A stretch of DNA of 64,000 bases, taken from contig NC_135357.1 in NCBI RefSeq assembly GCF_051622035.1, forward strand, positions 19,947,256-20,011,255, in the 5' to 3' direction. The notes beneath the pieces were generated by a model. It searched no databases. It was not told the origin of the DNA and was given only the letters and a program-made list of their open reading frames with translations. This DNA is from Arctopsyche grandis (lineage: Eukaryota; Arthropoda; Insecta; Trichoptera; Hydropsychidae). Shown in pieces: positions 2,519 through 57,789 of the stretch. Made by a program: the position numbers and the translations under genes. Every line of letters starts with the position of its first letter. Within the stretch, counting starts at the first letter, position 1.

Positions 2519-5500
2519 TTACATGTAATTTGCTTTAAAAATACCGTTCTTTATTAATTTTTTTTCTAGCCTACAAACTTCAAAATATAAAAGATTATTT
2601 TCCATTTCACAAGTGATCGCACACTGTTTCAATAACCAAGCAAAACTTTTAGGAAAATAGTTATCCAACTCCAAATCAAATGTAGATTTACTAAAAGTTA
2701 GCAAATAATTATAATAATGCCGCAACCAATATTTTTTATAACATGATGTCAACTTGATGCGTTTTTTTATTTTGTCTTTAATTTCTATACAGTCGTTTGG
2801 GGTAATGGTAAACGTGATAATTTTATCTTCCAATATTTTTCTGTGTTCAATCTCTTCAATGGCTTGGTGAACTCTTTCGGTCTCTAAAATATTCATCCAT
2901 TTTGACAGTGAACAGTCTAATACTTCTACAGTGTTTCCATTACTCATCAGACCCTTCTTTTTTTTAGGCTCTGTCAATTTTGGATCAATGTGAATATTTC
3001 TTTCATTAATAATCTGCAAATCAACTCCTAATTTTTTTAATGACCTTTGAGTCATTTTGGGACTCAAAATATAAGACAAATTATAGCATGAAAAATCTTC
3101 TTCTAAAATATCTTTATTAAATTTTGGTCTGGATGGGAAGAAATTTCTTGTAAGTAAGTTTTCTACGGCAGAAGTCAGGGGATATAAAGAACAATCAAAT
3201 TTCGGAAAAGATTCCTTTTTAGAATCATACGCATCATCAACTCTATTTAAAACTGATTTGATAAACATATTTGTCATATTTTTGGTTTTGTATTCTTCAG
3301 TTTTGTCTTTTTTATCTATTTGGTTTTGGTGTAAAAATAAATTTGGCATATCACAATCATCAAAATCTGCTTGTATTCTTGTGGGATAATGATATTCGCT
3401 GATACACATTTTTCGATATTCAATATACCGCATCCAATCTTTCCAAACAAAAAGGCGCCTTTTTCCCGGTGGGTTTTTATTTTCATGAAATGAATACAAA
3501 TCGCTTGGAAAACTTTTTCTTTCTCTTTGAAAAGACAAATGATTATTGATTTCTTCAACTGAATTAGATATATCATTTTCTACATTATCATCTAATCCAA
3601 AAAGAATTTTTAAACATACAATTATATAAGACATTGCAATGCCTTCATAATTTGGTAATGTACCATTTTTTTTAGGTATATAGCACGGTAATGGTTCAAT
3701 CATAGAAATTATCCTAATAGTAAAATTGTATAATTCAGATGGCAACTCCAATTCCACTACGTATCTACGAATTAATGATGCTATATCAGGAGGCGCAATA
3801 TCATCCAACTTCAAATATTTTGCGATCATATTTATAGTATTCCTCATACCAACATGTGAAAGACTTGCTTTGTATATTACAAATTTTTTATCAATTTTTT
3901 TTAAAATCATATCTTCAGGAAAAAAGTGATCATAAACGCCATATGATATGTGACCTTCTCTACACCACCGCAAAATATCACCAACTTGTATCTCATTTCC
4001 AATTATTCTAAGAGATAAAATCAGTATAGCATAAAGATTAGTAATTCCTAGTTTATTTTTTCTTTGCCAAATACGATCAGTTTTATATTGAAGACATCTG
4101 CATCCTGGTCGACAAAGGCCATCCTTCATATGATTGGCTATTGTTGCGTGACTTAATTTTAGGCTTAATAATTTTATGGTTCTTGAAGTAAAAGATATAG
4201 TACTAGGTTTAGATTGTGGAACTTCTTTCAAATCTGCAAGGGTCTGTGAAACCACAGGACATGTAGAAACTTGACTATCGATTAACTTCTGATATTCTTG
4301 GTGAATTAACATTGCCTAGAAATACCACATATGTATTACAAAATAATTTATCAAATAAACATACCTAATATATTTAAAAATAAAAAAAAGCTTTTAACAT
4401 AAATGTTATGCATTATTATTAATACCTTTTTCTTGGCTATGCACCGTTTCATCTCAATGTGTCCCATATTCTGAGTATTCATTTCTTCATTCTTAATCTT
4501 ACGTTTTCTATTTTTAATTTTTCGAATATCATATAAAAATTCAAGATCTCTGCAAATAATTTTTTGAAAACATACTTTTATCAACAAAAAAATGTAGATA
4601 TATATTGCCTTAATGTCAAATGAAAGATTATATTGAAACTATGGTAGCTATGAAAGTAATTAATGAAATTTTAGTTAAGCACATATTTATTACCTATCTG
4701 TAAATCCAAACGGTAATCTGGGTCTTGCAGAAAAATTTTTTTCAAAGAATGCTATTTTATTAATCTTTAAAAACTTGGCAAACAACTGAAATGTTGTCAC
4801 TTTAAGTTCTTTTTCAGAAACACCTAAATTGGCTACTTCTTCCGTTAATCCTAATAGAATCAAATTGTGAGCATGCCAAGTACTCCACATTTCACCAACT
4901 AAAAGTTTAAAAAAATGCAAAATTTGTGAAAAAATATATTAAAGAGGTCTACCTCACGGGCCGGAATCTGAAATGCCGGAAAATGCAAATATCGGAAGGC
5001 AAACATCGAAAATCGAAAGATCAAAAAAAAAGGGTGCATGGTAAACGGTACATACTCACTTAATTTGCGCGAGTAGGATACAACAGGAACAAGAAGAACA
5101 GGCTTTTCCTCCCGTATTAAAGTGCGCGCGCAGAATACGGGAGGAAAAGCCTGTTCCTCTTGTTCCTGTTGTATCCTGCTCGCGCAAATTAAGTGAGTGT
5201 GTACGTGAGTATGTACCGTTTACCATGCACCGTTTTTTTTTTGATTTTTCGACTTAAGATCTTTCGATTTTCGATCTTTGCCTTCCGATATTTGCGTTTT
5301 CCGGCATTTCACATTCCGGCCCATCACGGAGACCGATATTAAAGATATATTACAACATACTATAAATTTATATGTAATACAAATGTTGAATACACATAAT
5401 ATTCAACATATAGAAAATAAATTATAATTTAAACATAAATCTATGAATTTTTACAAATAAGAACAAAACATAAAATAACAATACTGACGTTTTAAATTCT

Positions 5501-11791: not shown

Positions 11792-12692
11792 ATGTCTGAA
11801 ACAAAGAAAATGGTATCAAAAACGAAACGAAAGAACAATAAAGAATCGTCTACTATTACAGAACGCAATGCCATTAGCCCAAATTGGCAAGCCTTTCTCC
11901 AAAATCAGGAAAAAAATTCATTTAGTAACAAGAGCAAAATGAAACAAGAAGTTAACGATTACTACAAAGTGCTTCGTGCAGAGGCACAAATTCCTCAAAT
12001 GAATAAAAAATCTATTTTAAATAAAAAAAATATTAGCAATGTAAAGAATCCAGATGGATCTCCAGTTATCACTAGATACGTAGCAATGGATTGTGAAATG
12101 GTGGGCATTGGAGAAAAAGGTGTCGATAGTATGCTAGCACGAGTATCCCTCGTTAATAAATTCGGAGATTGCATCTATGACAAATTTGTTCAAGCTAGAG
12201 AAAATGTAGTAGATTACAGAACTTGTGTTAGCGGTGTTAGAAAAGAAGATTTAATAAATGGTGAACGTTTTGACGTCGTTCAAAAAGAGGTGGCTGAAAT
12301 ATTAAAAGGCAGATATCTCGTAGGCCATGCACTCAGAAATGATTTGGATGTATTATTTTTAAGCCATCCTGCTTCTAAAATCAGAGATACTTCAAAATAT
12401 AAACCATTTAAAATGGTAATTTTTTTGTGTACATTCTTGATATTGTACGACTGATTTGATTTATATATATTTTTAATTATGTATTGTTAATTTTTAGATC
12501 ACCAAAGGTAGAATACCATCATTGAAGAGACTTTCTGAGGAATTATTGGGAGTCAATATTCAAAAGGGAGAGCACAGTTCTGTTGAAGATGCACGTGCAA
12601 CTATGCAACTATATTGTCTACATGCCCGGCATTGGGAAGACATGATTAAAAAGAAAAAAAATCGAAAATTTGATCATTCAAAATCTACATAG
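11792..12692 (+). CDS. Rexo4: REXO4-like 3'-5' RNA exonuclease, 2 coding exons
   Basis: The exons are 11792-12415 and 12498-12692, joined in phase 0, giving 272 residues. The DEDDh exonuclease signature is complete: MDCEMVG (D100, E102), [12 protein letters not shown] (D184) and [14 protein letters not shown] (H234, D239). The arrangement and length fit RNA exonuclease 4, a nucleolar protein linked to pre-rRNA processing. The basic N-terminal tail (TKRKNNK) would suit nucleolar targeting. I chose the ATG at 11792 because the frame upstream (from 11648) crosses an acceptor at 11656 and encodes a hydrophobic, leader-like stretch that is better explained as 5' UTR. The gene converges with the unknown minus-strand gene ending near 13172. 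Confidence 0.9.
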
Positions 12693-13171: not shown

Positions 13172-14743
13172 TTACACTATCTTATTGTGCAAAGAATGCA
13201 ATTGGTTGTTTTGTTCATCTTCATCTGGTTTAAAATACGGAGAGCACTATTTCTTCGGAAGCGTACGTAATAAATAATAAACATAAACTAAAAACAAAAA
13301 AATTGATAACCTTTTGATATGTGTTCTATGTACATACACATTATAAACACATACCTCTTTTCCATATAAAATACACATTTTTTTCTCTTCAATCACTTTT
13401 TTCGTTAAGATAATGTATAATATTGAAATAAAAAATTAAGTGTCAGTAAATTCTATTTACACTCCACTTGATGATGGTTATATTGAAAAATAACTTTCAA
13501 CACGTATCGCTTAGCTTAAAGGAGAATGCCCTCATTAATAGCTGATTTGAGGATAGGAAGAAATAATGGCATGATATTCAATGCTATGTTGTTCATATGT
13601 ATATACATACACACATATGTAGGTGGGCTGCTGTGATGATTTTGATTTAAGTTTTTACTTATTCGATTATAAAGATTTCAAAAGTTATCCATTTGAGCTA
13701 CACTGGCCTTTATTAACGTTCTCATTTTACATACATATGTATGTAGCATGAATAGTAAGCATATAAACAATGGCAAATCTAATATATGGACTAAGAAATG
13801 AATGCATGATTAACCAAATTATAATTCAAGATTGATCAATGGTCTACCATAACATTATATACATATGTATTATATTATATAAAGATTAATATTTTAAAAA
13901 TATATACACATTGTTTCCACTATACTTAAGTATATTGCTTGAAGAATAAGAAGAGGCTAGTAAAAAAAATAAATACTGTTTTCAAAGGTATATAAAAAAT
14001 ATTTATTTGTATTTACCAATCTATAAAGTGTACACTGTACACCGATTAATAAATGCTTTGGCTGAAGCCCGAAATCTTTATTAATTCGACTACGTTGATC
14101 TCGAATATAATATTGAAATTCTTTCATTCCAACAGGCTTATCTGTTACAACTACACAAACATCGACATCTTTCTCTTGTTTATTAGTTTTGTAGCGTCTT
14201 AACTCACAATATAAAAATATCGTATTGCTTATCTGGAAGATTAATTACATATGTATAACATATAAAGAAAAATCTTATTTATTTATTAAAATTATTCATT
14301 TTTTTCTGTAGGATTTTTCACTTTATTTTTAGTAAGATTAGATATTTCACCACAGTAAAAATTGGAAGAATTATACAATTTCTAACGTGTGTTTAAAAAT
14401 AAGAAAAATATAATAAAAAAACTTGTTAAGATTGTTTATTGTTTTCGTTTAATTTAATATCTACTTAAGTTTTTAAATTTTGTTTATTAAAATCGTCTAT
14501 TGTAAATTTATTTTGATTCCAAATTGCACTTTTCTAATTAATCTAAATTGATTTTTGTTTCCACATAAATTAACTGTTTTCAATACACAGCAAGAGTTCG
14601 AGGAAATTCAAAAGATTAACATTTTCTACAAATTATCATATCTTTGTTTTATATAGGAGTTTGAAGAATATTGCTAAGGTCAACTGCGTATTTATTGCAA
14701 AAACAAGTATGTCTACACTATGCAATCATTCTTTTTACATTTC

Positions 14744-14823
<80 letters not shown>

Positions 14824-17800
14824 TTGTACATACATATGTATATATGTATGTATACAAACTCAGTTACCAGTTCCTAATAAAAGCACATAAATAAATGGTC
14901 AAGTATGACAATTTAAACAATACTCGTGACACTTGCCAAGCGGGCTATTCCAGCCCTTACTACATACATAACAAATACGGGCTATACTCAGCCCTCACTA
15001 CATAAAAGATCAATACTTATCAAACTTTCCAATCATATTATTGCAGAGATATTTATTGAAATTGATATTTCATGATTTAAACAGTATTTGTTTTGTTATT
15101 TTAATTTCAATAGTATTTTTTCAGTAGTAACTGAAAAAATAATCCTGAACCAGAACTGAATAAGGAATACGGAAGCTAAACTAAAAAGGGAATCGGGATC
15201 CAGAACTGAAGCAGGAATCCGGAACCGGAACTGAAAGAGAAATCGGGATCCGAAAATGAAAAAGGAATCTGAATCCGGATCCGGAACTGAAACGGGAATC
15301 CGGAACTGGAAACGAATAAGGAATCCGGAACAGAAAAAGGAATCGGGATCCGGAACTGAAACATGTATTGGAATCGAAATCTATATATATTGTCGTCATA
15401 GAAAATTATATTTTTTCGATAACGTCACAGATTCTACCACCCAAGGTTTACATACTTACATTAAACCTTACAAAGTCTCTTTCGAAATTATATATTAGAT
15501 AAGTAAATATGAAGCTTCATTTTCGGAGTTATTGTTACCCCAAAAACCATATTTATACTGACGAAATGAAAATAAAAGTTCAGATCATACTGAAATTTAT
15601 AATAATTTGTACGGTGTTCGTTGATCGTAGACATTCAAGATTGGCCGTCCATATATAGTTGTTGAGTTCTATCTAGTTATGTCAGTTTTGTAACATCTGT
15701 CTTGACGAACAGCTACATATATCTCGCACGCAAGAAACTCGTGTGAGTAATTCGTGTATTTTTTACTGTATTTTTTTCTTTTGTTAAAACGGATTTGTCA
15801 CATTTATGCTAAAAAGTTCAAAAATGTTTAGTCTTCCAATAAATCTTTGTTCCACTGGTCACCCACTTAAATTTTATATATTTGGACAAATTTACAATAG
15901 TCGTTCACTTTTAGTCATTAAAATCATTTAAGTTGTCATAATTTTATTAGTGTTAAGAATATATATACATATATCTAATATGTATATATATATATAATCA
16001 AATGAATGTTACTATTAGATTGTTTTGCCATGTTTAAGCTGTTTGTATTAAAAATACCGAGCGAAGCGTGGTATAACCACTAGTATACAATACACATGTA
16101 GGTTTATGCAATTTAAGATTATTTGACTAAATTTAATTATTCTTCAAAGAAATATTCGTTTGTTTTCAAAAAACTTCATCAATAATGCATAATAGTAACA
16201 TTGTATTATATAATAACTAAATTTCGAATATTACGAAACATTATATCAAAATGTCAATGACTTACCTATGTATGTAGTCCAAACCGGTTGATGAATGTAC
16301 ATATATACATATGTACGGTTGACGATGTCTTATATGTAATAGATTCATAAAAACTTCTTTTCCTGAATTATTTAAAGAGTTATTTACGTATATCATTTTG
16401 AGTATGTACATATATAAGTGAATTTAAAATCTATTAGCTCCCTTATTCAGATGCTAAAATTTTTCGAAGTATCATATTTTGTCTTCCGTCACATCACTGG
16501 GTCATCAACGTAACCCGTGACCTGTTGATACAATACCCATTTATCTTGTTAGCAAGGTCATAATTATCGGTGGACACGCAATTACCAATTTCACAACCTA
16601 CTCGGTAAATTCTGTTGATGTCTATTACCTACTTGTTGGTATGATATTTAAAATATGTTTACCTAATCCTAGGTATGTAAAAATATGTTTTTACTTCATG
16701 ATCCCACATCCCTGTGTGAATCATGTACTTTGAATCAATTTATTATATATGCATATATATTCCTGCTATCCAGTCTTTTTTTTACATATTTTAAATATTT
16801 ATTTTTGGAAATGTGAAAACTTATACTTTGAAGTTTTTGCCAATTTAAGAATACATATTCTCTTTTACATCTAAATTATAATTTGTCTTTATATTTCTGG
16901 TAGGGTAAAGGGGTAACCTTATAATATAACCCTAGGCAATATTGAATCCGTTTCAAATTCTACTTACATATACAGTAGTTGGCAAATTATGGAAACCTAT
17001 GCATGTTTTATCAAAAAATACATGAGAGCAAGAAAACGTTCTTATGGAATTAAATACATATATATTATTTTATTGAAATATTTAACTTTATCCTTTTATA
17101 TTTATGCTGTCGTCTGGAATTCTGGTAATTATTAATTTTTCATTGCTTTCAACACATTGTAGTATACAGTATTATAATGGATTAGCTTAAACAATAAATA
17201 CAGTTGTGTATAGCAAATTTTTATATGTACATATGTACGTTTTTGTGTTGTGCTTAGTGACATCTACATATTTAAATTTACAATGAATTTCAATCCGTCA
17301 AACTTACCTTGTCCAGTAAATTATATGAATATATTGACTCAAAATTGTGTATTATATATTATGTATGTACTTTGAATTAAATAATTAACACAATTTAATG
17401 AACCAATTTTGATATTTCTCAGTAATACAATTTGAAAGTGAATAAAAATCGTTTGTGTTTCCAATTATTTATTAACAATTATTTTTGTGACTTGCCTTTG
17501 ACTTAATTTACATAAAACTTTATAATTATGCAACTGCACATATGTATTTCATTGGCCAGTCATTGGTCAAGTAATAGATTTATCCCTTTTTTAACTTTTT
17601 TAAATTTCCTTATTGGATTTTAATAAAATTTAAATTCAATAGTACACTTTATGTATGGATTGGTATGTACATATGTATATTTGCGATAGTTTAAAAGTCT
17701 TAAATACCTTTCTGATATAAATCCTAATTCATGGTCACGCTTTTTAGTTCTTGATTGATTTTTCGACTTTAGATCGAACTCTCCAAAAAATAGCTTTTGT

Positions 17801-20190
17801 TGCCATGTGATGTTATTTGAAGTGAAGAACAAGATATCACTGTGTGGACATCAATAGTGCTTTTTTATTACTATTAATATTCTTTTATTAAAAAGTAAAC
17901 CAAATTATAATCTTAACCCAAAAGGTTACCAAATGCAATTGTTTTTAATCGATTTCCATACAATAAATTAAAATAATTTAAAATTTATTTTAGAAAATTT
18001 CAAGTTCCATTCATGAAAAATATTTAAGAAATAAATTTTCATTTATACATACATATATGTCAGAAATGATTTGATATTTGAAACTGTTTATTTATCATTT
18101 TCAAAATAACCTTATTTTTGTTTGCAGTTACCCAAGATGAAGCTCTATTCAGAGTTTTTTTTCGCTGCTGCACTTTTATCAGTGTTTTGCAATGTCAATG
18201 CTGCTACAACACAGAGGAAACCCGCAAGACCTGTTCAGACTCAAGGTGCGGATTCTTTGACATCGAAGGTAATATAATACATGATAAATATGAATCATTC
18301 ACATGATTAATGTTTCCAGATCTGGTATTTTATTGGAACGTAGATACTGTAGAGATTCGGTATAAAATGTTAAATAGATAAATGTGTTGAATCATCCATT
18401 TCCAAATGACTAATTTTATTTTACTTTTTTCATTGAAATTATTTCGAAACTAAAATGATTCTTGATAGAATTATGACTTTTATCATAAAATCGAGCATCA
18501 CTGTGAAAATTTGTGTCATATTTTATTTTCGGCTTCAGCTAATTTTATCCATCAGAAAAACACATTTCAACAATTTTAGTACATATGTGTGTACATACAT
18601 ATGTCAGAACACAATTAAATTGAATCTGAATCAAATTCAGTTCTTTTGATGTGTAACACATGTTTGCTTAAATGTGATGGCTCTCAACTGAATATTGGTA
18701 TTTTATCTACGCAATAACTTTAAAATATATATGATTTAATGCGAAATACATTTCAATCAAAATAACCAAATTTTTACGCTATATAATTAATTTTTACAAT
18801 TGCCATAACAAGAAAATACACCATCACTTGTTTTGATGATATTTGTCGTCGGCTTATCAATTTATCTTCTTATTACAATTATTTTTTCCCTTCTATACAT
18901 GACTCATCGCCTTATCAATTCTTAAAGTCCTAAATTCTTTTTTTCTTCAATTTGCAACTATAAGTATGTATCGTTTAATACTAGAAGTTTGTGGACGACT
19001 AATACAAAGTTTATCTATTGAAATAGAATAATTACATACATATGTACAATACAAATGTATGTTTATATCATATATATGTATGTATGTAATTTTTTTATTT
19101 ATTTTTAGGAATATGTAATTTTTCTTTCATTTTAAACCATCTTAAAATACATCAATAATAGGTATGCTAGATACTAGAGTTTCCAATTATTTTTACTATT
19201 CGAATATCGAATAGTAAAATTCGAAATATTCGAATAATTTTAAACAACAGAACAGTTGACGTTGACTTAATTGTTAATAAAGGATATCTAAAGCACGCGC
19301 GTTCAATCCAATTATTTAATTTGAGAAAAAATACCCGGATCGATAACGTGTCACTACGAACTTCGAAACACAACTGAAGTGAAGTTCAAAACAACATAAA
19401 TGAAACGAAATATTTCTGCTTATCCATAAAAATTGCGTTCCCGCTTCGGACTATATTTTCGTTTCCATTTCAAATAAACGCTGCAATAAGTTCGCTTTCG
19501 TAAAATACATAAGTTCAATTTCTAAAGCGATCCATTGCATTGAGGCGATAAAATGACTCCGAGTCGACGACTTATAGTCTTTCACACAATACTGTTGCAT
19601 TAAACATTTCGAATTAAAAATAAAATTGTATTTTGTTAAAAAAATTTCAAATTTGTAAAATATTTTATTAAAATTTCACGAATATTATTCGAATAATTGC
19701 TCAAATATTCGAGTAACTAATAGTCCAAAATAGGCCGAATATATTCGAATATTCGGATTTAGAAACTCTACTATATACTATGTATATTAATATATTTGAG
19801 CACATTTTAATAGGATGCATGATTATTTGTACAAATGTTTATAAAATTATGCAAAAATATTTGAAAAATTCAGTTGATTTTGAGTTCAGGTTAGTGAATA
19901 TTTTTGAGTTTTTAATGAGGTGCTAAATTTATAGCCACTTCGTAACTTTTTAGTATCTCGTAAATTGCACACTTTATCGGATGTTAAGTATGTAGTTTTA
20001 TTTTTTAGACTACTGCATATAAACAATACTTACAAATTACATAAATGTATGAGTAATGTTGAGAAACACCGCTTTAATGCATATCTTCCACATCTTCCGG
20101 CGTTAGTACTATTGATACCAGTCGACTTATCAGTTTCATTTGGGCAACCGTCTGAACGACTCGTTTTTGCGTATTCGCTTGCAGTTTGTC
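13172..20190 (-). CDS. Unrecognised multi-exon gene, antisense to the gelsolin 5' region (partial model)
   Basis: Minus-strand exons with good splice sites and matching phases are 20190-20034 (51 codons, contains [20 protein letters not shown]), 17839-17708 (43 codons, NITWQQKLFFGEFDLKSKNQ) and 16611-16522 (30 codons, IYRVGCEIGNCVSTDNYDL). After a gap come 14232-14017 (72 codons, ends in phase 0: IFLYCELRRYK...DVDVCVVVTDKPVGM...LQPKHLLIGVQCTLYRL) and 13246-13172 (PYFKPDEDEQNNQLHSLHNK, stop). AATAAA follows at 13148-13143. Exons between 16522 and 14232, and at the 5' end, are missing. One candidate is a 31-nt microexon near 14375 that would add NCIILPIFTV and complete a membrane helix. Cysteines and N-x-S/T sites in the first exons, a hydrophobic segment and a charged tail suggest a type I membrane protein; that is inference. 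I do not recognise the family. Confidence 0.5.
14747..14818. repeat. (TA)n microsatellite
   Basis: About 36 uninterrupted TA units lie in an intron of the minus-strand gene. Confidence 0.95.
14935..15003. repeat. Two short repeats of CGGGCTAT...CAGCCCT...ACTACATA
   Basis: AAGCGGGCTATTCCAGCCCTTACTACATACA and TACGGGCTATACTCAGCCCTCACTACATA are about 40 bp apart. Each can form a small GGGCT/AGCCC hairpin. Confidence 0.5.
15140..15365. repeat. Minisatellite of GGAACTGAAnnnGGAATCnGGATCC units
   Basis: Degenerate units of about 18-36 bp built from CCGGAACTGAAA and GGAATC(C/G)GGATCC repeat about ten times. Open frames on both strands here (Phe-Arg-Ile-Pro-rich or Glu-Ser-Gly-rich) are by-products of the repeat. 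The units resemble the GGACCCGGATCC pair near 43300. Confidence 0.8.
15652..15742 (+). promoter_or_regulatory. Candidate gelsolin core promoter and leader exon
   Basis: TATATA at 15652-15657 lies 32 nt before the A of TCAGTT (15682-15687), the insect initiator consensus. A short exon, 15684-15742, would then end at a strong donor (CTCGT/GTGAGT). The next plus-strand acceptor with coding sequence is 18127/18128, which begins the gelsolin signal-peptide exon 9 nt before its ATG. The spacing is canonical, but the assignment to gelsolin is inferred from order and strand only. Confidence 0.45.
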
Positions 20191-23100
20191 CTGAGTAAAT
20201 ATACATATATTTTCTACTAATAACTGTAAAGGTTTTAACACTAGTTAACCTTGATTTTACGCATAGATGATTATGCGCTTTTTATGTACTTTTTATGAGC
20301 GGTTTAATTGCACTCATGCATTATTTATTTCGTGTGATGTACGAAGACTCTTTAATCGATGAACGTAAAATACAAGTATCACTTTTGTCAGTTGATATTT
20401 TTAGATTGCTATTTTCTTGTCATGCGCTAGCCGTTTATTGCATCCACTTTGCGTTATCTTCATTTTCAAATTTTCAATAAAAAAGTCTAACAATGCTAAG
20501 AGTCATAGTTTTTATGACTAATTTTTGTCATGTGTAATTTTTATATACGTGTGTGTGTTCGTGCTATGTTGGCAATTACATATATTCAATTAGTATAATT
20601 ACTTAAATATTATGTAATTTATTTAGACGAGTACTACATATATTAAATTTCGACTGACACATTTCATAAAACTGTCATACAAATTTCGTTAAAATATTTC
20701 TTAAATTAAATACACCCAACTCTTTTTGCATGTGTAATACCTTCCATTACTTTAAATCAACTCAAATTATGAAATTCTCAAACTCCAAAAGAAATTGAGT
20801 TTATTTTTTATTTATATATGTATAAAGTATTCTCATAAGACATATATGTATGAACATAAAGAAATAATAAACTGCCGGTAGCTGAAGACAACATATGTAT
20901 GCGCGCAATATAGACGACACTTTTTTTTATAAATATATATTTTTATCACTTTTTATTTTTTTAAACTTTCTTATAACAAATATGATTCATTTTATTGGAC
21001 CGTGCTATTTCTAAAACCGTACATAAAAAATGTCAAAATGAGAATCAGGTGTATACGAAACATACAAAATATATATATTTTTTTTTTGCTTTCCTGTATG
21101 CCTGCGTTGCATTACTAATTTATTACTCAAGAACACCGGTTTCACGGTTCTTGATCTCTGGGTTTTTAAACGTGTATTGTTGTTATTTTTTACTAGTTAT
21201 CGTTAAAATTCTACAAGGTGAGACATCTAACCTTGACTTGCATCATTAACGAGTTCTCGGTATCCAAGCGAAGCGCTAATAACAGTTTTCCGGCATCTAA
21301 CCATTTCAGTGAAATGTCACAAACCATTTGGGAACAATCGATATTTTGGTCGCCACGCTTATTCGGGGCGTGACGAATAGGCCACAACCCAGAACGGCCG
21401 TGAAAACATGGCCTATTTCAGTAAATGTCGATGTTCATTATTTTCATAGCAATAGCATTGACGCATACCCACATTGCTAACGGGAAATCATAATTGATGG
21501 TTATTTTAAAAAAAATAGGAGAAACAATAAGTTTAACTTTTTCACAAGTACATTTATTTTCTAATTTAGTGACAAATCTAGAATAAAAAAACAAAATATT
21601 GAATTTATAAATATGTAACATTATTAATGTACTAGTGTTGTGCCCGATGAAATATCATCGCATGACTGTTGGCATATTAACACACCTTAAGCGGGTCACG
21701 TAGTACTACGTTTCATATGAGCTTGACGAGAAATGTGGGATACGTAGTATTACGTTTGATATTGGTTCATCGCGGAAGGCGGGATACGTAATGGTCCGTA
21801 CGCACCAAACCAACGACGATTTTGGGCCAACTTTTAAAACCAGTAGCATACAAAATATCGAAATAAAAAAATTGAAATTAAATATCAAAATTAAGCTAAC
21901 GAGCGAGATTGAGCTAAAATTAGACCATCGTTGATGTTTTGAATTACAACAATGTTTTGAATTACGACGATACGCATTATAATCAGAGAAATATTATAAT
22001 TACGAGCGAAAAAAATCTTGTTATTGTTTCTTATAAGTCGTCACGATAACTACTGTGTTTCGCCGTCGATGAAATATTTAACAAAAAAAATGACGGTGAT
22101 TTGTCAAAGGGTTTTTTTTTCTTTCGTCGAAATAAAATTAATAATCACACATTATCCGATAAATTTTACCTCTGAGATGGATTCAATTATTTGATTTATT
22201 TCGACGAGAGAAACAATTGAAGACATTATCCGATAAAATTTACCTCTGAAATGATTTAATTAATTGATTTATTTCGACGAGAGAAACAATTGAAGACTAA
22301 AAAAATTTCGTTTGATAAACCGACAACGTGCCGGGTTGGGACCATCGCTCGGTCACCCATACTAACACATGATATATTCTCAGTAACTGCGCATTACGGG
22401 GAAGTAAAAATAATAATTCTTTGATTTTTTTTTCGATCTTAGTGCGTATCTTCGTAAGTCAAAACATCTTCGACAAACAAAAGTCGAGGATTACCTGTAT
22501 GTGATTGTTGATGATCTAATTTTAGGTCAATCTCGAAAATTTATTTAAATTGGGCATGTTCTGTTTTAACTTTCAATATTTTATTTTAAATTTAATATAT
22601 TGATTATAATTTTATTTTGATATTTGAATTTAATTTTAATTTAATAAAAATATTTTTAATTTTGATATTTAATTTCAATTTTTAAATTTAATTTTTATTT
22701 CGATATTTTGTACGCTACTGGTTTTATCCTGCTGGTTAAAACGTTGGACCAAAATCGTCGTTGGTTTGGTCCGTACGCAGCATAATACTACGTTTATTCT
22801 AATAGTATATGGAGATTTTTTTTATATAAGTTTGAGTTTTGAGCGATTTTTATAATCTATTGTATTTATTCGCGCAGCCTTGTGATTTTGCCCACTACCG
22901 CTAGTCGCCACAAAAAAAATTAGCCCGCTAAAGGTGTGTTAAGTTATTAAATTAAAAGAAATGTGTCGGTTCTGTGTTCGATCCACGCGGGTTCAATATA
23001 TTTAAAAGGTATTTTTTTCAAATATCTTTTAAATATATTTAAAAATAATGGTAAAACCTACCTACCTACCTACATATAAACAATATAAAACACCAATAGA

Positions 23101-26100
23101 AAAGTTAATTAATTAAATAAATTTTCAATAGATGGCGGTAAACGCTCGGAGACTAAGCGTCGTGTATTTGCCTAGAAAAAACATTCGTAACAACCAGTAT
23201 AAATAGAAGTTTTTTTCTTTTGTTATTATATTCGTATATACTAAGGTTTCTGCAATGGAACTTTTTCTGCAATGGAACACTTGGCAAACCCGGAAATTTT
23301 ATCGGAACACTTAACTTATATTTTAGGTTGGGTAATTCCCAGGGACCAGGGACAAGGCCGCCGAGAGGAATCTCGGGCCCTGGAAAAATAATTTCGGACC
23401 CTATGACAAACTAAAAATAGATATAGGTATTTTTAATATTCGAAAAATACATCAGAACTATTAGAAAAATACCTATAATATGTAACTATAATATAATATA
23501 AACATAAAAATATGAATATATAAAGCACTTAATGACTGATGATTTAAGTCCTCGAATTGCATATCTTCTTGATAACAGGTAAGTTGCATTCTACATAATA
23601 TCTGGTGTGGCGTCGAGCCTGTCCCTGCACTTTGACTTCGTTGCAGCATAATAAGAAAATCCCACTTCGCATAAATAGGTTGTAGAAAATGGAAGTAAAA
23701 CAATAATAGCTTGTTTTGAAAAATTGGGGTACTCTTCCGACAAACTCACCCAGAAATCATTTAAAGGTTGATCTTTGTATTTTTGTTTCAAATCAGTCAC
23801 TAATTAAATTAATTAGATTTTCATACTTACTTGCACTTAAGCCTACCGGTTTAGCTGTCACGGAAAATGGATTCCGAACCCAGGAATCGTCTTTACTAGT
23901 TTTCGGAAAATATTGCAAGAGTTGTTTTCAAGTTATATATATATATATAGGTGTTCTAAAAATACTTTGGAAAACTATCAAAATTATTAGATTCAACTAG
24001 GTTTAATCCAAAATTGTATTTTGTTATCAAAAGATGCAATTTTATCCCTTGTATTAAAAATTGTAATACTTTTTCCTTGTAATGATAAGATATGCAAGTT
24101 TTATCAACCATGAAGGATTTGTTAAAACTTCAACAAAATTTTGCCTGATCTATTTTGTTTTGTTGAATTATTCAATATGAAGTAGAAAATCTTTAAATGT
24201 GTTGCGGTGTATAAAACCTTTCCAAATTGTCGCGGAACACCTATTCAGGTTCAGCCGAACACTGGTGTTCCGTGGCTCGACGCGGCTCGAAAAATCGACT
24301 CGTCATAGAAATTTTGACTTTACGAAATTCCCAACCAAAGATACATTTATACATACTTACGTACAAAGTCTCTTTCGAAATTATATATTAGATTATGGGT
24401 ATAATTACCAAATATAAAAGACTATCGTTGATGTTGACTATTCTCTTAATTGAAGTTTTATTTTTTGACAGTTGTTTAATCTTTGTATATATCATAAACA
24501 TGGCTAATTGTGTATTGCTGTTTTACAGGACAGCAAAAGGAAAGGAATGGATCACCCGGCTTTCAGCAACGCAGGAGCCCACAAAGGCATTGAGCTATGG
24601 CGTATTGAGGTTCGTTATTATTTAAAGAAATGTCATATGTCATAACTGTTGAAAATAAAAACTTTTATTTTACATTTGTTGATAACCATATTTTTGACAT
24701 ACAAGTAGAAATATATATATCATTTCGATTATATTAGCTCCACGATTTTTGCAAAATTACACAGAATATATATGTACGTATAAAACTAATTCAATTGTGA
24801 TATTTTAGACTTTATTAAGATTCAATCATTTTAAGCCGATTTTTTCGGTTTATTGAAATGTTCACCAACCCCCCCCCCCCCCCCACCTTAATTATTTTTT
24901 ATTAATTACCTTTCGACATGGTACAATTTTCTGGGAGAAAGTCATATTTTGTGGGAAAAATTGAATTTTTATGAAAATAATTACATATTTAATATATGTA
25001 TGTATTGTAGTTGAAAAATTAAATTTAATAATTTATATTCAAAGTCGAAAAGTTCCTGCATATTGGAGTTAAAATGATATGTAGATTTTACTCAAGGCAT
25101 ATATATATATATATTATATATATGTATAATATAAACACTTTATGTTTAGGTTATTAAGTACTATGTATATGCATATGTAGACCTTCATATGTGAAAACGA
25201 GTTTGTAAAAAAAAAATATTTTTCTAGCATTTTCGTTACACTATTTCTAATACTTTCATAAAAATATTACTTTGTACAAAAAATACATTATCTAATCTTT
25301 CTTTTATCTCGATGGTATTTTATATATTAGATTGACATAGTATAATAACATATATACTATGTAAAATTTTTTTTTTTTGGTTTATACTATGTTTATATAA
25401 TATACTAGCCAATGTTGACCGGCAGAGCCAGGCAATTCTCGGTTTCAATCACCATTATTCAGGCAGCTGAAAGCTGGAAAAGAAACTTCAAAGAGCTCCG
25501 AGCTCTTTCAAATCAGGTCTACAGCTTAAAATAATATACCAAATACGGCAGTTCTTTGTATATTGAAATTTGTAAAATAGCATAGCGAACAAACAAACTT
25601 TTCTGGACGTTTTTTTTCTCCTCAATAGAATGAGTTGAACCTTGGACAATGAACTAAGGTTGAATTACTCCATATACATATGTACATATGTGTGTATTTA
25701 TGCACTTGTAGAGTCTTTATTTTCTTTATTTAGAATTTAAGAAGACTTATATAATAACATTGTTTCATTGATGAAATAACTCATTAATCCATGGTTTCAA
25801 TTGAGGTGCTAACATATGGCAGTTTTTCGATTTCAACATGTTTTTATTTTATTAAAATAAAAATTATATCGTAGAGACGTCGAGTATACTGTAGTTTATT
25901 GATTTTCATTGATTGCCAGTTTATCCAATGAGTCAAGAATATTTATAGAATATCAATGAAGTGGATTAAAATGTTGATATTATATATACCTGATATTAAA
26001 ACAAAGTAAATAAAACTTAAGTGAAAAGAGTTCTATCTAATCTAATCTAATCTAATCTTTATTTGCACATGTCATATTTTCAGTGTTTCATCGATACCAT

Positions 26101-29100
26101 GTACGTATGTATGTATATATGCAATGATGTAAAGTAATGCAAAACGTATTTTTTTTATATAAAACTAGTCAAATTTAGCACTTTAAAACTTGGGTGGGCA
26201 ATTAAAGCTTTTTTAGGATTTTTTTATGGTACCCCTTTCTACAGACTATGTAAGTTTGAATACTATGTGGTATTCCACACTGGAAAAATATTTGTACATA
26301 TAATATTTTGAATAGAATTATGTTTAATGATTCATTATGGAATTACATATATATATATTACGTATGTATGTACGTCCATATTCCCAATCACAAGATAATT
26401 CAAACGAAAAACATGTGTTTTTTTTAAATCAAATATTTTTTTGCTATTTTATGTAATATTTATTAATTTTAATTTATAATTTTTTCAGATTTCTCGTATG
26501 TATTGCATATTATATTCATTTAATATTTCATTTCAGAACTTTGAGCCAGTTCCTGTACCAACTGGTGAAATTGGAAAATTCTATACAGGAGATTCTTATA
26601 TAATTTTGAATGTAAGATCATTAATTATAATTCTAGGATGTTTATTTTAATACTAATAAAATTGTACTGTTTAGTAAATTAATGTGTAATATATTTTTTA
26701 AGACCAAAGAAGATAATCGCAAACGTCTTTCATATGATTTACACTTCTGGTTGGGAAGTAAAACCTCCATTGATGAAAGTGGCACAGCTGCGATTCTCAC
26801 TGTTGCCCTTGATGATAAACTTGGTGGAGCACCAGTCCAACACCGTGAAGTACAGGGACACGAGTCTCCCGTATTTCTCGGGTATTTCAAACCAGGTTTG
26901 TAATTTTTATTTCTAGTTCCTTGTATCACGTATTACAAATATATCTATATTCATATGTGTTCGAAATATATTTACGTAACGTAACCCCTGCGATAAATCA
27001 AAAAACTTTTAAAAAGTCTGTTGTTACCATTTTTTGGAAATAATTTTTTTAATTGTATTAATATGTCATTACATTACATATATAATTTTAGCTATTAGAT
27101 ACATGGATGGAGGTCATTCCACTGGATTTAACCATGTTACTACAAATGCTGGAGCCGAAAAAAGAATGTTCCAAGTTAAAGGAAACAAAAACATTCGCGT
27201 TAAACAGGTACATGAATAAAATATTTAATTTTTAAAGGGATACATTTATTGCTTTTTAATTTTCCTAACTTGTGGATTAACGTTGTTTACTACTAGGTTG
27301 GGCCTGGAGTGTCATCAATGAACACTGGAGATTGCTTTATTCTCAATATTGACCACGATATCTATGTTTATGTTGGACCAAAAGCGAGGAGAGTGGAAAA
27401 ACTTAAAGCTGTTTCGGTTGCAAATCAAATTCGTGATCAAGACCACAATGGAAGAGCTAAGATTGACATAATCGGTGAATATAATAAAATACTGTTATTT
27501 CGAATGAAATACTGTTATTTTTTTAATAAAATATTAAAAATTGGGTTTTAAAAAATCTTATTATTGAAATTTTATAGATGACTATTCGAGTGATCGTGAT
27601 TTCGATAAGTTTTTCGAAGCACTTGGATCTGGTTCTAAAAACACAGTACCTGAAGACAGTGCTGGTGGAGACGATGAGGTTTATATTGATATATATTTTT
27701 TTATATTCACATGTCTATTACATACATATTATTATACGAAGGATTAACACATTAAATAATTTATTATTTAATTTTTTTCAGACGTTCGAAACATCGGAAC
27801 AACAAATTGTATCACTTTATAGGATTACAGACGAATCTGGAAAAATGGAAGCAATTCCTGTTTCACAAAAACCATTTAGACAAGACCAACTCAATGAAAA
27901 TGTATGTATTTACATATTAGATTTATATTTGTTATGCAATGAATATATTGAAGGTGAATTATATATTTATGTTTTACTTTTTAGGATTGTTTTGTGCTTG
28001 ATACTGTTACTGGTGGAATTTACGTCTGGGTTGGAAAACAATGCAATCAAAAAGTATGTCCCTCATTATTAAATTTCATATTTTAAATTTATTTTGCAAT
28101 CATATTTAATAATTTTCAGGAGCGAGCAGAAGTTATGTCCAGGGCTCAAAACTATATAGAAACAAAGAATTATCCTTCATGGGTATGTTAAAAAATAATG
28201 TTTTCTGTATTTTGTATTAAGATATTGGTTTGATTAATTATATGTACATTGTACATATTTGAAAGTTTAAAATCAAATAAAATTGAATCGTATTGTTTAT
28301 ATATTTGTGTTTTAAAAATAGGTTCATGTCACCCGAGTGCCCCAGGGAACTGAACCAGCTGCTTTCAAACAATATTTCTCTACATGGAAAGACCATGGTG
28401 CATCACACACTAGACTAATTCGTTCTATCAGCGGTAATTCCTAGCATTAATATTAATATATTTTATGTACATATACATACATACATGCATTACATATAAA
28501 ATAAAAATTTCTTTTGATCGCCCACATTTGTTTTTAGATGAAGAAATGTATTCATCAGATGCAGAGGTAGCTGATGCAAGAATTAAAAAAGTTGTCAAAT
28601 CAGGAGCGGCACGTGGATTCATGCCGGATAAAGGCGATGGCCATACTATTGTTTACAGGTAAATATTTTATATTATGGTAAAATATTATTAAATATTACT
28701 TTATGTGAATGTGCATTAAATATTTCAGAGTTCAGGGAGATGATTTAATTGAAGTAGCTGATTCTGCCGATCCGGAGCGAAGTGCTGACGATGGATCAAA
28801 ATATGGTCAATTTTATCAGGGAGACTCTTATGTCATCAAATATGAATATACAAATAGTCAAGGGGATACTGCATATGTCATCTGCTATTGGATTGTAATA
28901 TAATATATTGTGTTTTATGTATTTATGTACATACAAAATTAAATTTTTCACTAAGTTTTCTTTAATTATAGGGAAAAGATTCTACTCCAGATGAACAAGA
29001 AAATTCATATGCACTAGCAAAAGTAATGAATGAAGATCTTGGAGGTGATCATATTGTAATAAAAGTACCACAAGGCTCAGAACCAAAACATTTCTTAAAA

Positions 29101-30791
29101 CTTTTCAATGGTAAAACTTTAAATTAGTTTATTTGTGTTATATAATATGTTTTAAATGTAAAATTTTATTAACTGCATGCTTTTTTTTATATTAGGTAAA
29201 ATGATTACACTCTTAGGTGGCCATGGATCCGAATTTAAATACTTCAACACTAAAGATTCATATGACACTGATGGCACCAGACTATTCAAAGTAATTTTTC
29301 TCTATTATTATTATATGTTTAAATAGTAATGAATCGTTACCACTTTTTTTTCATTTTTACATGTACATACATATATCTTTCACAGATTCAAGGTAATGAA
29401 ATGGACAGTGATATGAGAGTTGAACAAATTCCTGAAGATGCTTCTAATATTGATCACGAAGATGTCTTCCTGTTAGAGACGCCAGATAATATTTATGCTT
29501 GGATTGGAAAGGTTGTTGTAATATTTTGTCATTTTCTTTTTTTATTAATTTTATTAAATGTTTATTTCAAATAATAATAAAAAAATCTAGGAAAGCTCTG
29601 ATGAAGAAAGGCAAGCTGCTACATTCTTTAGTAAAGTATTATTTGGTGAAGACAAAGAGCCAATTACGATAAATGAGGATGAGGAATCTGAAGATTTCTG
29701 GAATGCACTTGGTATGTAAAATAATATTTTTCTGAAATAATAAAACAATAGTCTGGTCTAGTAGTTATGGTTTTTTATTATTTATTTATTTTTAAGGGGG
29801 TGCACCTGAAGAAGTGAGAAGATCTTCCATTCTTAAACAACGCACGAGACTGCGTGTGGGTCAAGAACCTCATTTGTTACAGGTTAATATTCGTAAAAAT
29901 GGACGTGTCAGACTTCAAGATATTGGAGGATATCAACAAGAAGTAATTATATTTTCAAATTTTTAAATTATTTATTAAGTTGAAGTATGTATGTTTATTC
30001 ATTATTTTTCTGTTCGATTTTAGGATTTAGATAGCGATTCTGTGTACATATTAGACTCTGGTGAAGAAATTTATGTTTGGATTGGAAGTGAAGCTTCAAA
30101 TGTTGAAAAAGATTCAGTTCAATCTTCATTCAGTGTAAGTATTATAGAAAGAAATATATTTTTACAACACAATACATATAATATACAGATTGGAGTTATT
30201 GATGTTATCAATACAAAATTCAATATTTACATCATAGCAGCAGTTAGCATACTGTTTTTCTGAAGCAGAATTATTGGCATTATCAAAATTAGTACCTCCA
30301 ATTTAAACACCTTTTAAAAACCTGACTCCATATACATTTTCAAAAACATAAAAAAGATATACCGAGTCCTTAGAAAAAATGAAATTCTTAATCATTCAAT
30401 CAACCATCCTAACACGTACATATTAAAGTTTGTTCATATAACATTGTTCTAGTAGGTATACACACATCGATTGAATTAATTGATAATTAACTTATCATTA
30501 TTTTTTGTAGGAATATCTTAAAGATGATCCAGCTGATAGAACAGTCGATAATGCTTTAGTTATAATCATTAAACAGAGTCGTGAGCCTGATGTTTTCAAG
30601 CGAATGTTTGAAGATTGGGATGATGATATGTGGACTGTAAGTACATGTTTTAATCAATGTTAATATTGTTCAATATTTCCAATTTATCTTTTATCATTCC
30701 ATTTTATCTAATTTGTCTATTTTGATTTCAGAACCAATTGTCTTATGATGATGTGAAGAATAAGGTTATTCAAACTAATGAAATTCTCTAA
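18137..30791 (+). CDS. Gel: Gelsolin, secreted form, six gelsolin domains, 21 coding exons
   Basis: The coding exons are 18137-18268, 24529-24609, 26537-26611, 26703-26895, 27092-27207, 27297-27474, 27578-27678, 27782-27901, 27985-28053, 28120-28182, 28322-28433, 28538-28658, 28729-28894, 28972-29110, 29196-29290, 29386-29511, 29591-29711, 29797-29942, 30024-30134, 30511-30636 and 30732-30791. All junctions are GT/AG and phases join without a break, giving 816 residues. Residues 1-22 are a signal peptide ([20 protein letters not shown]...). Domain 1 starts at [19 protein letters not shown] and carries [17 protein letters not shown]. Repeated (V/I)Y(V/A)W(V/I)G motifs mark later domains (IYVWVGK, IYAWIGK, IYVWIGS). 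Gelsolin severs and caps actin filaments under Ca2+ and PIP2; the signal peptide implies a secreted form. A cytoplasmic isoform with another first exon is possible but was not found. AATAAA lies at 30998 and 31005. Intron 1 (6.3 kb) is full of transposon debris. Confidence 0.96.
19178..19768. mobile_element. MITE-like element with AGAGTTTC ends
   Basis: The left end AGAGTTTCCAATTATT...ATTCGAATATCGAATAG and the right end CGAATATTCGGATTTAGAAACTCT are inverted complements in outline and share TATTCGAATA motifs. It has no coding sequence. It lies in gelsolin intron 1. The boundaries are approximate. Confidence 0.5.
21681..22938. mobile_element. piggyBac-type MITE with long inverted repeats, TTAA duplicated
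   Basis: The left end is TTAA/CACACCTTAAGCGGG and the right end is CCCGCTAAAGGTGTG/TTAA (TTAA at 21677-21680 and 22939-22942). The arms continue inward for over 200 bp: GGTCCGTACGCACCAAACCAACGACGATTTTGG on the left mirrors CCAAAATCGTCGTTGGTTTGGTCCGTACGC on the right, and CAGTAGCATACAAAATATCGAAAT mirrors ATTTCGATATTTTGTACGCTACTG. Inside, a unit of about 74 bp (ACATTATCCGATAAATTTTACCTCTGA...) is tandemly doubled at 22151-22298. No transposase is present. TTAA targets and C-A-C ends are the piggyBac pattern. Confidence 0.85.
23520..23800 (-). pseudogene. hAT transposase C-terminal fragment (ZBED-like)
   Basis: On the minus strand 23800-23591 reads [19 protein letters not shown]...[28 protein letters not shown], the conserved hAT C-terminal dimerisation region (usual form: [28 protein letters not shown]). 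It then shifts frame near 23600, and the tail continues in the frame of 23703-23473. It is a remnant inside gelsolin intron 1. Confidence 0.75.
24180..24400. repeat. Transposon-like fragment sharing an end with 15450-15500
   Basis: The phrase ACAAAGTCTCTTTCGAAATTATATATTAGAT occurs at 15470-15500 and again at 24363-24393, just upstream of gelsolin exon 2. It also contains CGCGGAACACCTATTCAGG and ACTGGTGTTCCG, which are partly complementary. The family is unknown. Confidence 0.4.
24868..24885. repeat. Poly-C tract
   Basis: About 16 consecutive C in gelsolin intron 2 sequence, next to ACCAACC. A homopolymer like this is error-prone in assembly. Confidence 0.8.
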
Positions 30792-32303: not shown

Positions 32304-33198
32304 TTAATACCATGGATAATAGTAGTTTCCATATGTAGGATATGCATATGGTGAATAGTTATATTTCGCAGGTCTTTTGTTATTATTATATGTAGAGGCA
32401 ATCGAATTTCCATCACTACTCCAAGCATTAGCAAAAGCACCACCACTTGCTTTACCAACAGAGTTAGCACCAGCCATAGATATAGCATTACTGCCGGCAA
32501 AAGCAACGGCACCAACTATAGGAAAACTGTTGGTACCAGCTACAGTACCAGCACGTGAAATTACTCCAGGTTGACTATCTGGAATACCAGTTTCATATAC
32601 AATGGGCATACCATTATGAATTATATCAGTTTTTTGACAGTAACTACCTAAATTTTCAGAATTACCTGTGTCTTTGTCAACGCTAGCATAGCTTTTAGCA
32701 ACTCCATCGCCAGTAGTGTGAGTATAAGTTTCTGGTGCTTTTCCATCTTCACTTTTGCTTATAGATACACTAGTTGATCCTTTACTATCAGTACTGCTAC
32801 TCCATGATTGGCTCTGTCCAGTCCCAGACGAATAGGAGGAAGAGGATGAACCAGGAGATAAATCAGATGATGGATTTTCAGATTTGTTGGTTTTGCAATT
32901 TGTAGGATCATCATTCGATTTACTTACAACTCCGGCATTATTTATGGCAACGCTTTGAGCTACACCACCACCTGTTGCCATTGCAATAGTTTTTGGATCC
33001 ATATCACCATTACTGGCACTTGCAGAATAACTGGTAGAATCATCATTTTTTGCGGAACTTGTGGCTTTTCCATCGCCAGTTGTGTATGTGTATGTTTCTG
33101 CAGTTTTTCCATCCTCACTTTTACTTTTCGATATACTTGTATTTCCTTTATCATCAGTACTAGTACTATATGAAACACTTTGTCCATTACCCGATGAT

Positions 33199-33230
<32 letters not shown>

Positions 33231-34434
33231 TGAAGAGGAACGAGAAGGGGAGTTTGTATTTGTATCGCAAATAGGACGTTCTTGAGGTGTATCATTTTGT
33301 TTTTTGCTAGAGGGTTCATCTTCAGAATGACTGACAACACCACTATTATTCACTGCATCACTGGAAGCCCTACCGCAACCAGTAGCTTTAGCGTATGTTT
33401 CTGGTTTATCGTTGCCATTGCTCGAACTTTGTGATATGGAACTAGATGCATCATTATCAGCAGTAGCAGTAGCCTTGCCGTTTCCTGTAGTGTATGTATA
33501 TGTCACTGGTGCATTTCCATTTTCACTCTTACTGCTCGATATTGAAACAGTTCCTTTATCATCACTACTCCATGAAGAACTCTGACTTGATGAAGAGCCC
33601 ATATTAGAACGCTTAGTATATTCCATATTTTCTTCAGGAGATTGTGTTGTAGTTGGAGGTGTTGTAGTTGGAGGTGGTGTAGGAGGTGTTGGAGCATCTT
33701 TTGGTCCAATATTATATGCACCACCCATTCCAGCTGCACTGCCCCTTCCATCGTCATTGACACTTATAGACCCACCAGGGCCAGAACTGGTATATCCACC
33801 ACCAGGGAGTGTACAGTGTGTTCCATTCTCATCAGTCCAACACCTAACCACATTATCATTTGCTACCGGAACAGCCTGTAAGAATACACACTTATATTAT
33901 AAATTTAGTGTGAAATACGTATACTTTTTATTTAATACATTAAGTATTTTAATTTTATTTTTTAAATATTACTGAGTCAATCCAAAATTTTTTCATTGCG
34001 GTTGCAACTGAGTTTTTATTTGCGTCGCTATTCTTTAATGTCTGTGAAGCAGTATATTATTTTCAATATATAACCAGCAAAAAATAATATTTATTCAATG
34101 ACAATTTTAAATGTTCACATTGTTAACATAAAGCTTTGTCATTAATTTAATGAATGTTTATTCAGGTTGTTTCTTTGACTTAAAATTTTACAATAAATTT
34201 TATGTAAACCAATAACCAATACAACTGTGTAATCAACGCAATAATTTCAGACCTGTAAACAGGTTTGATGGTATTTTTCCTTAAAAGGAACTTCCAAACA
34301 AATATTTGTTATTCAAATTTGCATATATTTTTTTCATAATATAATAATTATTTTTCTAATTAATCTAATTTAAATATGTTTGTATAATTATATTGGACAA
34401 TTTAAGCTTAATATAAATTCTTCTTTGAAAACAG

Positions 34435-45987: not shown

Positions 45988-48874
45988 CAGTGGCGTGCGG
46001 TCCATGGATGCGGTGGATGCGGCGCATCCCCTATAACTTTAAAAAGCCAAGAGTATTTTTAATAAATATTTGAATTTCGCTTCGATGTATTCTTAGTGAT
46101 GTACGTGATTATGATGTAGTATATGAGTATATATATATATTTCACATATCACGTGTTTTTTGTTACATGATGCATTATATAGGATCTTTTGATAATTTTT
46201 ATTAAGGATTCGCATAGGCGGCCGGCCGGCCACAGGCGAGTGACGCTGGCGAGTAGACGCTGAGTGAAGTGCGCGCGCGTCATGGATTCGGAGTTCGGAC
46301 CGATCCCATTTGCGCATGCGCACTATGAGGCTGTCATATTCGCGCGGACGCGTTGACACTTGTTTAACCTCTACGGTGGATTCGGTTTCTCTGTTTGCTT
46401 ATCTATTGAGTTTCACTTGGAAGCCGCTGTTGATCGATATTTCCGCACGCTACGCCCCAAGTTATTTATCAAAAAGCTAGCCGATTCATTTCTTTAGACG
46501 AAGTTAATCATTTATACTGTAAGTTGGTTATTTTTTACTTTTGAATTAAGTTTTCATTTAAATTAGTTTCGTCTAACTTTATTTTTAGTTTACTGTTCCA
46601 CTACTTACGAGTTTTCATTATAGCCTTTAATATGGATATCGAAAATAACAATGAGAGTGGACTTGTCGTCGAGATCAATAATAATTGCAATTGTTTAATT
46701 GAAAATGTGCTGAAAAGAAGATTTGCTTCTCTCCCATTTAATGAAAAGGAGATTATTGTTAAGAGCCCCAAACCCACACCAATATTAAATATTCAGTCTA
46801 AAACAAAAACATTTAAAAGGTATTTTAACACAGAAACATACGAAAAAATTTCATGGATTTGTGGATGTGCTCACTTAACGAAATTATTCTGTTGGCCATG
46901 TATTTTATTTTCTCAAGAAGTGAATGTCTGGAGTAAATTTGGATTTTCTGACCTAAACAATTTAAGTAAATCGCGCAAGAGACATGAATGTTCTCAAGCT
47001 CACATATGTTCTGCTGCTCAATTTAAAAATTTTGAAAGGGACCTCGTATAGAAAATTTTTTAAGTGCTCAATTTAAAGCAAATATTGAAATGCACAACAA
47101 AGAAGTTACTGCAAATAGATACATTTTGTCGAAATTAATAAGCGCGATCTGTTTTTTAGCAAAACAAGAACAACCTTTACGAGGACATTTTGAACACCAG
47201 GAATCGGAAAATAGAGGGAATTATATTGAGTTGCTGTATCTGTTGAGTGAATCAGACATAAAATTGAAAACTCATTTAGATAACTCTACGGTGTTTACTG
47301 GACTATCGAACCATATACAAAATGACTTGGTATCCGCAATATCAAAAGTCTTGCTAGATGAGATTAAAACTGAAATACGTGCATCAAAATTTGTTTCCAT
47401 AATTGTGGACGAATCTACAGATATCAGTCGCAAAGCTCAGCTATCTACTATTTTTAGATATGTAGATGAAAAAAATGAAATTCAGGAGAGATTTGTTGGA
47501 TTTGTCGATGTTAGTCCCAATAGAACAGCTAATGCTCTTTTTCAGCACATACGTGAGACCTTGGAAGAATTTGGTTGTTTGGACAAATTAATTGCACAAA
47601 CGTACGATGGAGCGGCTGTAATGTCCGGGGAGCATAATGGAGTGCAACGAAAAATTCGAGATATTTGTCCTAATTCTTTATTTGTCCATTGTTACGCTCA
47701 CAGATTGAATTTAGTTTTGTCGCAATCTGTTAAACATATATCCGGATGCAAACGTTTTTTCAGCCGTATGTTGTCATTTTCAACTTTTTTTTGTAAGTCT
47801 TCAAGAAGAATTTCCCTTCTCGATTGTCAAATAAAAAAACGATTTCCCACTGCTGCCCCTACACGATGGAACTACAATAGCAAAATTTTAAATATGATAT
47901 TAGAATATCAAACAGAATTAATGGAAATATTTAATCAAATAATTAATGATGAAGACGAATGGGATACTGATGCTGTCATAAATGCTGAAGTCCTTCATCG
48001 TTATTTAAAAGAGTTTGAATTCAATTTCAATTTGCATTTATTTTCTGCAATATTTAATTCGGCAGATTTTTTATTTGAAATTTTACAAAAAAAAACCTTT
48101 GACATATCGTATTGCGTAAGTGAAATTAAAAAATTTGTAAAATATTTAGATAACAAAAAAGACGATTTTGATTCATTGTGGAACAAAGTAATAACTAAAA
48201 ATTTTAATAGAAAAAGAAAATATGCTGAATGTGAAGAAGATGTGAAAACAACGTATAAACTTCACTATTCTGAAATTTTAGAAACTCTTTCAGTAAATAC
48301 AACCAATCGATTTCGAGATATCGAAAATTTAAAATTTCTCGAATTTTTTAACGTCAAAAAATTTAAAGAATATGAAAATAATTTTCCAGATTTCCTATTT
48401 AAATCACTCCACCTAACTTATGGAAAATACTTTGATTTTATGAAATTAAAAAGCGAATTAATTTACATGTACTCAACGCAAGATTTTCATTTGAAATCTA
48501 TAAATGACGTAAAGGAATTAATTGTGAAAGATGATCTAATAGACGTTTTGGAACAAGTATTTAGTTTAATACAATTAATTTGTACGATACCTTCCACGAG
48601 CGCATCGGCTGAACGATCATTTTCGACTATGAAAAGAATTAAAACGTTCACCAGAAGTAGTCAAAATGAAGAAAGACTCTCTGGTCTTGCTTTAATTGCA
48701 ATCGAAAAGAAAATAATGTCAAATTTAAAAAACAATAAAAAATTCTATGATGCGGTTATCGATGAATTTTGTAAAAAGGAACGAAGAATAAAATTAAATT
48801 TTAAAAAATAAATTGGTCGGTTTTTTTTTCAAACAAGGGACAGCATCCCTTGTTTGAAAAGTCACCGCCCGCCA

Positions 48875-48877: not shown

Positions 48878-48956
<79 letters not shown>
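48878..48956. repeat. (TA)n microsatellite, right half of the hAT target
   Basis: About 39 TA units follow the right hAT terminus without a gap. Confidence 0.95.
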
Positions 48957-48959
<3 letters not shown>

Positions 48960-48984
48960 TTATATATGAATATGAATACAGAGA

Positions 48985-57580: not shown

Positions 57581-57789
57581 TATTGAACTGCGACGCAAAG
57601 CAAACAAAGGAAAAAATGGACGCGAAGAGAAAAAAAAATAAACAAAGGACAATGGATACGGACAAAACAAAATGGATGCTGGCGACCAAAAAAATAGCAA
57701 CCACAACAGAAAAATGCAAATGACGACCAACCTGGACTAGACGATGTTGGCAGACCAGCTCTGGAGGATTCGGCTATCGAAGGACCAAA

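Follow-up and report, generated by a model that had tools for sequence, protein, structure and literature searches.

Two coding-like minus-strand pieces at the 5' side and in intron 1 of gelsolin in Arctopsyche grandis: possibly two short separate genes, not one interleaved gene

The question raised by this locus is whether coding-like pieces on the strand opposite the insect-type gelsolin gene of Arctopsyche grandis belong to a gene, and if so to one gene or to more. The original prediction had joined such pieces into one membrane-anchored gene that runs from 20190 down to 13172 and is interleaved with gelsolin. In the window, a stretch of 64,000 nucleotides, our analysis favors, tentatively and with slightly less confidence than would tip the balance, two short, lineage-specific protein genes, or remnants of genes, that lie separately on the minus strand, with no single gene joining them.

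The neighboring genes give the setting. A minus-strand gene of the Rrn7/TAF1B type lies at 2522–4309 (Pfam match), and a plus-strand gene for an RNase_T-type exonuclease, which we take to be REXO4-like, lies at 11792–12692 (with the Pfam match for 11792–12412). Gelsolin is on the plus strand, its later exons span 24529 to 30636, and Pfam gelsolin repeats were found in three of the four exons tested (26703–26900, 27297–27476, and 28972–29121). Its intron 1 lies between the following two exons:

18137–18268, plus strand: gelsolin signal-peptide exon (coding part)
24529–24609, plus strand: next gelsolin exon

Several repeats and open frames also occur in the window. Intron 1 contains a foldback-type element at 21690–22950, with 48-nt arms (21791–21838 and 22736–22783) that are 88% complementary and, by eye, a further outer arm pair near 21690 and 22940, as well as a fragment of a hAT transposase dimerization domain on the minus strand at 23594–23803 (PF05699, E 0.0023, 18.1 bits against a cut-off of 21.4). 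A 52-nt pair, 83% identical and 8.9 kb apart (15449–15500 and 24342–24393), flanks the gelsolin signal-peptide exon and may be a shared transposon end. A diverged tandem array of GC-richer units of about 25 nt occupies 15129–15378 and adjoins an (AT)n run at about 14743–14826. Farther right, a minus-strand 530-residue open frame at 32304–33896 is Ser/Gly-rich with repeated blocks, has no Pfam match at E 0.1, and perhaps encodes a secreted or structural product; a (CA)n/(GT)n microsatellite of about 600 bases at 43.4–44.0 kb is open in several frames; and 47036–60646 holds several open frames that are presumably retroelement-like and transposase-like, one of them of 1624 residues (52862–57736, minus strand).

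Splice sites were scored with donor and acceptor tables built from the window's known sites, 17 of each kind, together with a general consensus. Scored leave-one-out, the known sites gave 3.2–9.1 for donors and 2.8–10.3 for acceptors (17 each). Ranks below are among the 503 AG and 617 GT sites on the minus strand of 12.7–24.5 kb. Two pieces look more coding-like than most of the surrounding DNA, 20190–20034/20074 and 14232–14017. The first lies inside gelsolin intron 1, where it can be joined to an exon upstream of it:

21232–21327, minus strand: candidate first exon (E1), with an ATG, 32 codons, and a phase-0 donor
20074–20190, minus strand: candidate second exon (A), frame 0, with 38 codons and then a stop

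Among the 38 phase-0 initial exons of 14.26–24.45 kb with a donor of at least 3, E1 is the best (16.1, with the next at 10.2), and its donor, AAG/GTTAGA, scores 8.1 (rank 13 of 617). The acceptor at 20190 scores 6.7 (rank 18 of 503), and exon A has a codon score of 10.0 bits and an AATAAA at 20002. Joined in phase 0, 21327–21232 and 20190–20074 give 70 residues with both start and stop within the intron, and the frame ending at 20074 scores 32.8 (the sum of its parts), while no two-exon gene on the plus strand of the same stretch (18.4–21.69 kb) scores above 26.8. The same splice pair read in another frame, from a start at 21304 to a stop at 20030, scores 37.8, so the reading frame of E1+A is unsettled; five further ATGs lie just upstream of 21327. 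GC content is about 45% over 21.2–21.42 kb compared with 27% in 13–18 kb, and this GC-richer patch at E1 raises such scores. The exon at 20190 fits better as the end of this two-exon nested gene than with 17839, the acceptor to which the original prediction had joined it.

The exons and their splice sites can be read directly in the DNA; we infer their joining, and with it transcription and any function of the protein. The unit would then be a gene of two exons nested within intron 1 of gelsolin and expressed as an ordinary spliced mRNA antisense to gelsolin, and its candidate product, judged by its sequence, is probably a small soluble protein. E1+A would lie entirely within one gelsolin intron and on the opposite strand, and would in this be like the intron-nested antisense genes of insects, such as 2mit, which is reported inside Drosophila timeless2 (PMC3786989). 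Unlike genes of the 2mit/timeless2 type, the candidate here is known from its sequence alone and has no recognized family.

The second unit would lie between the exonuclease gene and gelsolin, and its coding part would include the first and probably then the second of these exons:

14017–14232, minus strand: exon C, 72 open codons in one frame (ISNTIFLYCELRRYK...GVQCTLYRL), phase 0 at both ends
13177–13287, minus strand: candidate terminal exon (T), 36 codons and then TAG, in phase after C

The peptides IFLYCELRRYK and VDVCVVVTDKPVGM, which the original prediction had read from its last exons, do lie in one open frame and in one exon, C. With 23.2 bits, C is the top-scoring minus-strand internal exon of 13.0–18.1 kb, where the next minus-strand exon scores 15.0 and the best plus-strand exon 15.5. 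Its acceptor at 14232 scores 5.9 (rank 28 of 503) and its donor at 14017, TTG/GTAAAT, scores 6.7 (rank 28 of 617). Both ends of exon C are in phase 0 and no start codon lies close to its 5' end, and thus the gene containing it is incomplete as known. The acceptor of exon T at 13287 is good (8.8, rank 6 of 503); the codon score of T, –0.249, is matched in 2307 of the 3398 noncoding windows that are open and is indistinguishable from noise. An AATAAA at 13148 lies beyond T, in DNA where one or other of AATAAA and ATTAAA turns up every 152 bases. As with the nested gene, exon sequences and sites are present as given, and the C/T join, like transcription as an ordinary spliced mRNA beside gelsolin and the role of any protein, is what the model would add. 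Two other arrangements were considered here. A possible start at 15634, from which an exon would lead into C, was set aside, as its donor scores only about 4 and nothing supports it, and the best minus-strand two-exon gene of 13–18.1 kb (25.9; 16302–15181) leaves C out and finishes in the tandem array.

Two small orphan units have similar odds to chance, and we regard the two as about equally likely; by the latter reading, which we also place somewhat below an even prospect, the minus-strand pieces are all noncoding DNA, intergenic or intronic, where splice-like sites and open frames happen to fall together. The score of C was matched in 1.5% of 400 Markov-simulated sequences of equal length, and in two sets of 300 shuffles that preserve local composition it was matched in 30 and in 21 runs; because 7–10% of local shuffles reach it, C alone is not significant. 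With the first codon table C scores 0.021 per codon, just below the 90th percentile of 299 open noncoding windows (0.029). It falls below the 18 gelsolin-region exons listed (25.5–49.2), and three loci in 13–24.5 kb outscore it, at 20190, 21412, and 23379, the last among transposon remnants. Chance is likewise favored by the hundreds of in-frame chains, on either strand, that are as good as that of the original prediction (below), by the lack of a family above cut-off, and by the absence of a paralog of C from the searches that follow. Against it stand the lead of C over the next minus-strand exon (8 bits) and over the best plus-strand exon (7.7 bits) of 13.0–18.1 kb, and the score of E1+A, which was reached in six of 150 shuffles of 100-base blocks and in none of 150 with 300-base blocks, a 0–4% chance.

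The original prediction had recognized no family for the minus-strand pieces, and Pfam and PDB searches agree, with no match above cut-off. Pfam gave no match for C+T or for the 70-residue E1+A, and its sub-threshold matches are taken as chance: Phage_TAC_7 for exon A in frame 0 (E 0.13), DUF3615 for the frame of 17839–17708, an exon of the predicted chain (E 0.33), and Collectrin for C (E 0.067–0.073). Sequence searches of the PDB gave no match better than E 0.96; one of them returned nothing, and for E1+A the best was a bacterial repressor (E 1). A weak phmmer alignment of NDUFB4, a complex I subunit, across the C/T join (E 0.96) is not significant. Foldseek returned no match at E ≤ 0.001 among 1049 with E ≤ 10, no relatives of C were found in prokaryote and viral contigs, and Rfam had no match at gathering scores. 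Predicted without an alignment, exon C folds at low confidence (pLDDT 58) as strand-strand-helix-strand. The folds nearest to this low-confidence model are C-terminal subdomains of adenylate-forming enzymes (PaaK2, 2y4o; an NRPS adenylation domain, 6uly), but tautomerase-type, secretion baseplate subunit, flagellar-ring, and Ohr/OsmC folds lie within 1 Z of them, there is no sequence match to those enzymes, and the minus-strand Pfam scans described below report no such catalytic domain upstream of C.

The membrane anchor that the original prediction considered probable is weakly supported. The peak 19-residue hydropathy is 1.59 across the 14017/13287 join, a borderline stretch that exists only if C and T are joined, and 0.53 in C alone. 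As to copy number, in the window's own assembly (476 Mb in 189 contigs) exon C found only itself, both as DNA and as protein, and the DNA of 20034–20200 (A) and 21220–21430 (E1) was each found once, in a search that scores best candidates only, skips very common words, and had one first-look candidate for each. More than one genome copy, the mark of a transposon, was thus found for none of C, A, and E1, and since each found only itself none of the three resembles a recent repeat.

A less likely explanation, to which we give perhaps a minor share of our confidence, is that C would be the final or penultimate coding exon of a larger gene whose introns hold gelsolin in whole or in part, with upstream exons that lie beyond gelsolin, that include E1, or that are too weakly biased to be seen. 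The phases and missing start of C agree with this, as does E1, which ends in phase 0 and could splice directly to C. In addition, real exons can escape codon scoring here, as shown by the TAF1B-like gene with its –0.052 per codon, and such scoring alone cannot exclude them. On the other side, among exons with splice scores of at least 3.5, no internal exon of 14.3–20 kb exceeds 11.9 bits, and Pfam found nothing at E 5 when the minus strand of 14.3–17.9 kb was searched in shorter pieces and nothing at E 1 when that of 12.5–22.4 and 22.4–32.3 kb was read with stops as X, which is a weak test, as the 22.4–32.3 kb scan missed the hAT fragment that was found when searched alone. One further segment has very strong splice sites:

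16266–16362, minus strand: acceptor rank 10 of 503, donor rank 2 of 617, poor codon score

It is a possible untranslated or noncoding exon upstream of C.

Flies make both secreted and cytoplasmic gelsolin, and the second gelsolin exon (24529–24609) has a Met two residues ahead of HPAF that could be the start of a cytoplasmic form made from another promoter. The GC-rich block at 21.2–21.45 kb and the block at 20.1 kb might be regulatory or untranslated parts of an alternative gelsolin promoter and not minus-strand coding exons, a reading to which a strong plus-strand donor at 21217 also lends itself. A plus-strand exon ending at 21217, however, would fall left of the GC-rich block and outside it, and we consider this explanation improbable.

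There remains the single interleaved gene. AG and GT dinucleotides and open frames are present at all the exon ends that the original prediction gave, its phases are compatible, and in scripted joining both 20034/17839 and 17708/16611 are in frame and stop-free with codons unbroken. Its description of the sites as strong suits the donors at 20034 (6.6, rank 30 of 617) and 17708 (7.9, rank 14 of 617) and fails for the acceptors at 17839 (0.1, rank 235 of 503) and 16611 (2.2, rank 139 of 503) and for the donor at 16522 (0.8, rank 321 of 617), each of which is below all 17 known sites of its kind. Exon 17839–17708 was rejected for its acceptor despite the rank of its donor, and exon 16611–16522 because neither of its sites reaches the known range; the codon scores of the two exons are unremarkable (equalled by 455 of 2132 and 1436 of 5413 open windows, respectively; the former windows noncoding), and no exon linking 20 kb to 14 kb was found. 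When acceptors must score 0.0 or more and donors 0.7 or more, exon 20190–20034 has 401 two-exon continuations on the minus strand of 14.3–20.03 kb; the plus strand offers 462 and the reversed sequence 160; because chains of equal quality are so abundant on either strand, unbroken joins carry no weight as evidence of a gene. The claim that exons of this gene lie within gelsolin introns is true of 20190–20034, which is inside intron 1; the others lie left of the signal-peptide exon, the first gelsolin exon identified. With three of the four splice sites of its two middle exons below those known, equally good chains in plenty, and a hydrophobic stretch that is borderline, this is the least probable of the readings and is not supported.

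It is conceivable, if quite unlikely, that gelsolin in this lineage hosts an orphan antisense gene in intron 1 and has a second orphan at its 5' side, whose expression is coordinated with, or mutually exclusive with, its secreted and cytoplasmic forms. If they are real, the two short units would be ordinary, probably unannotated, orphan genes. In DNA of 27% GC, in-frame splice joins are too common to count as evidence for a gene, and the main value of the present analysis is a corrected model, in which a two-exon nested gene replaces the interleaved chain.
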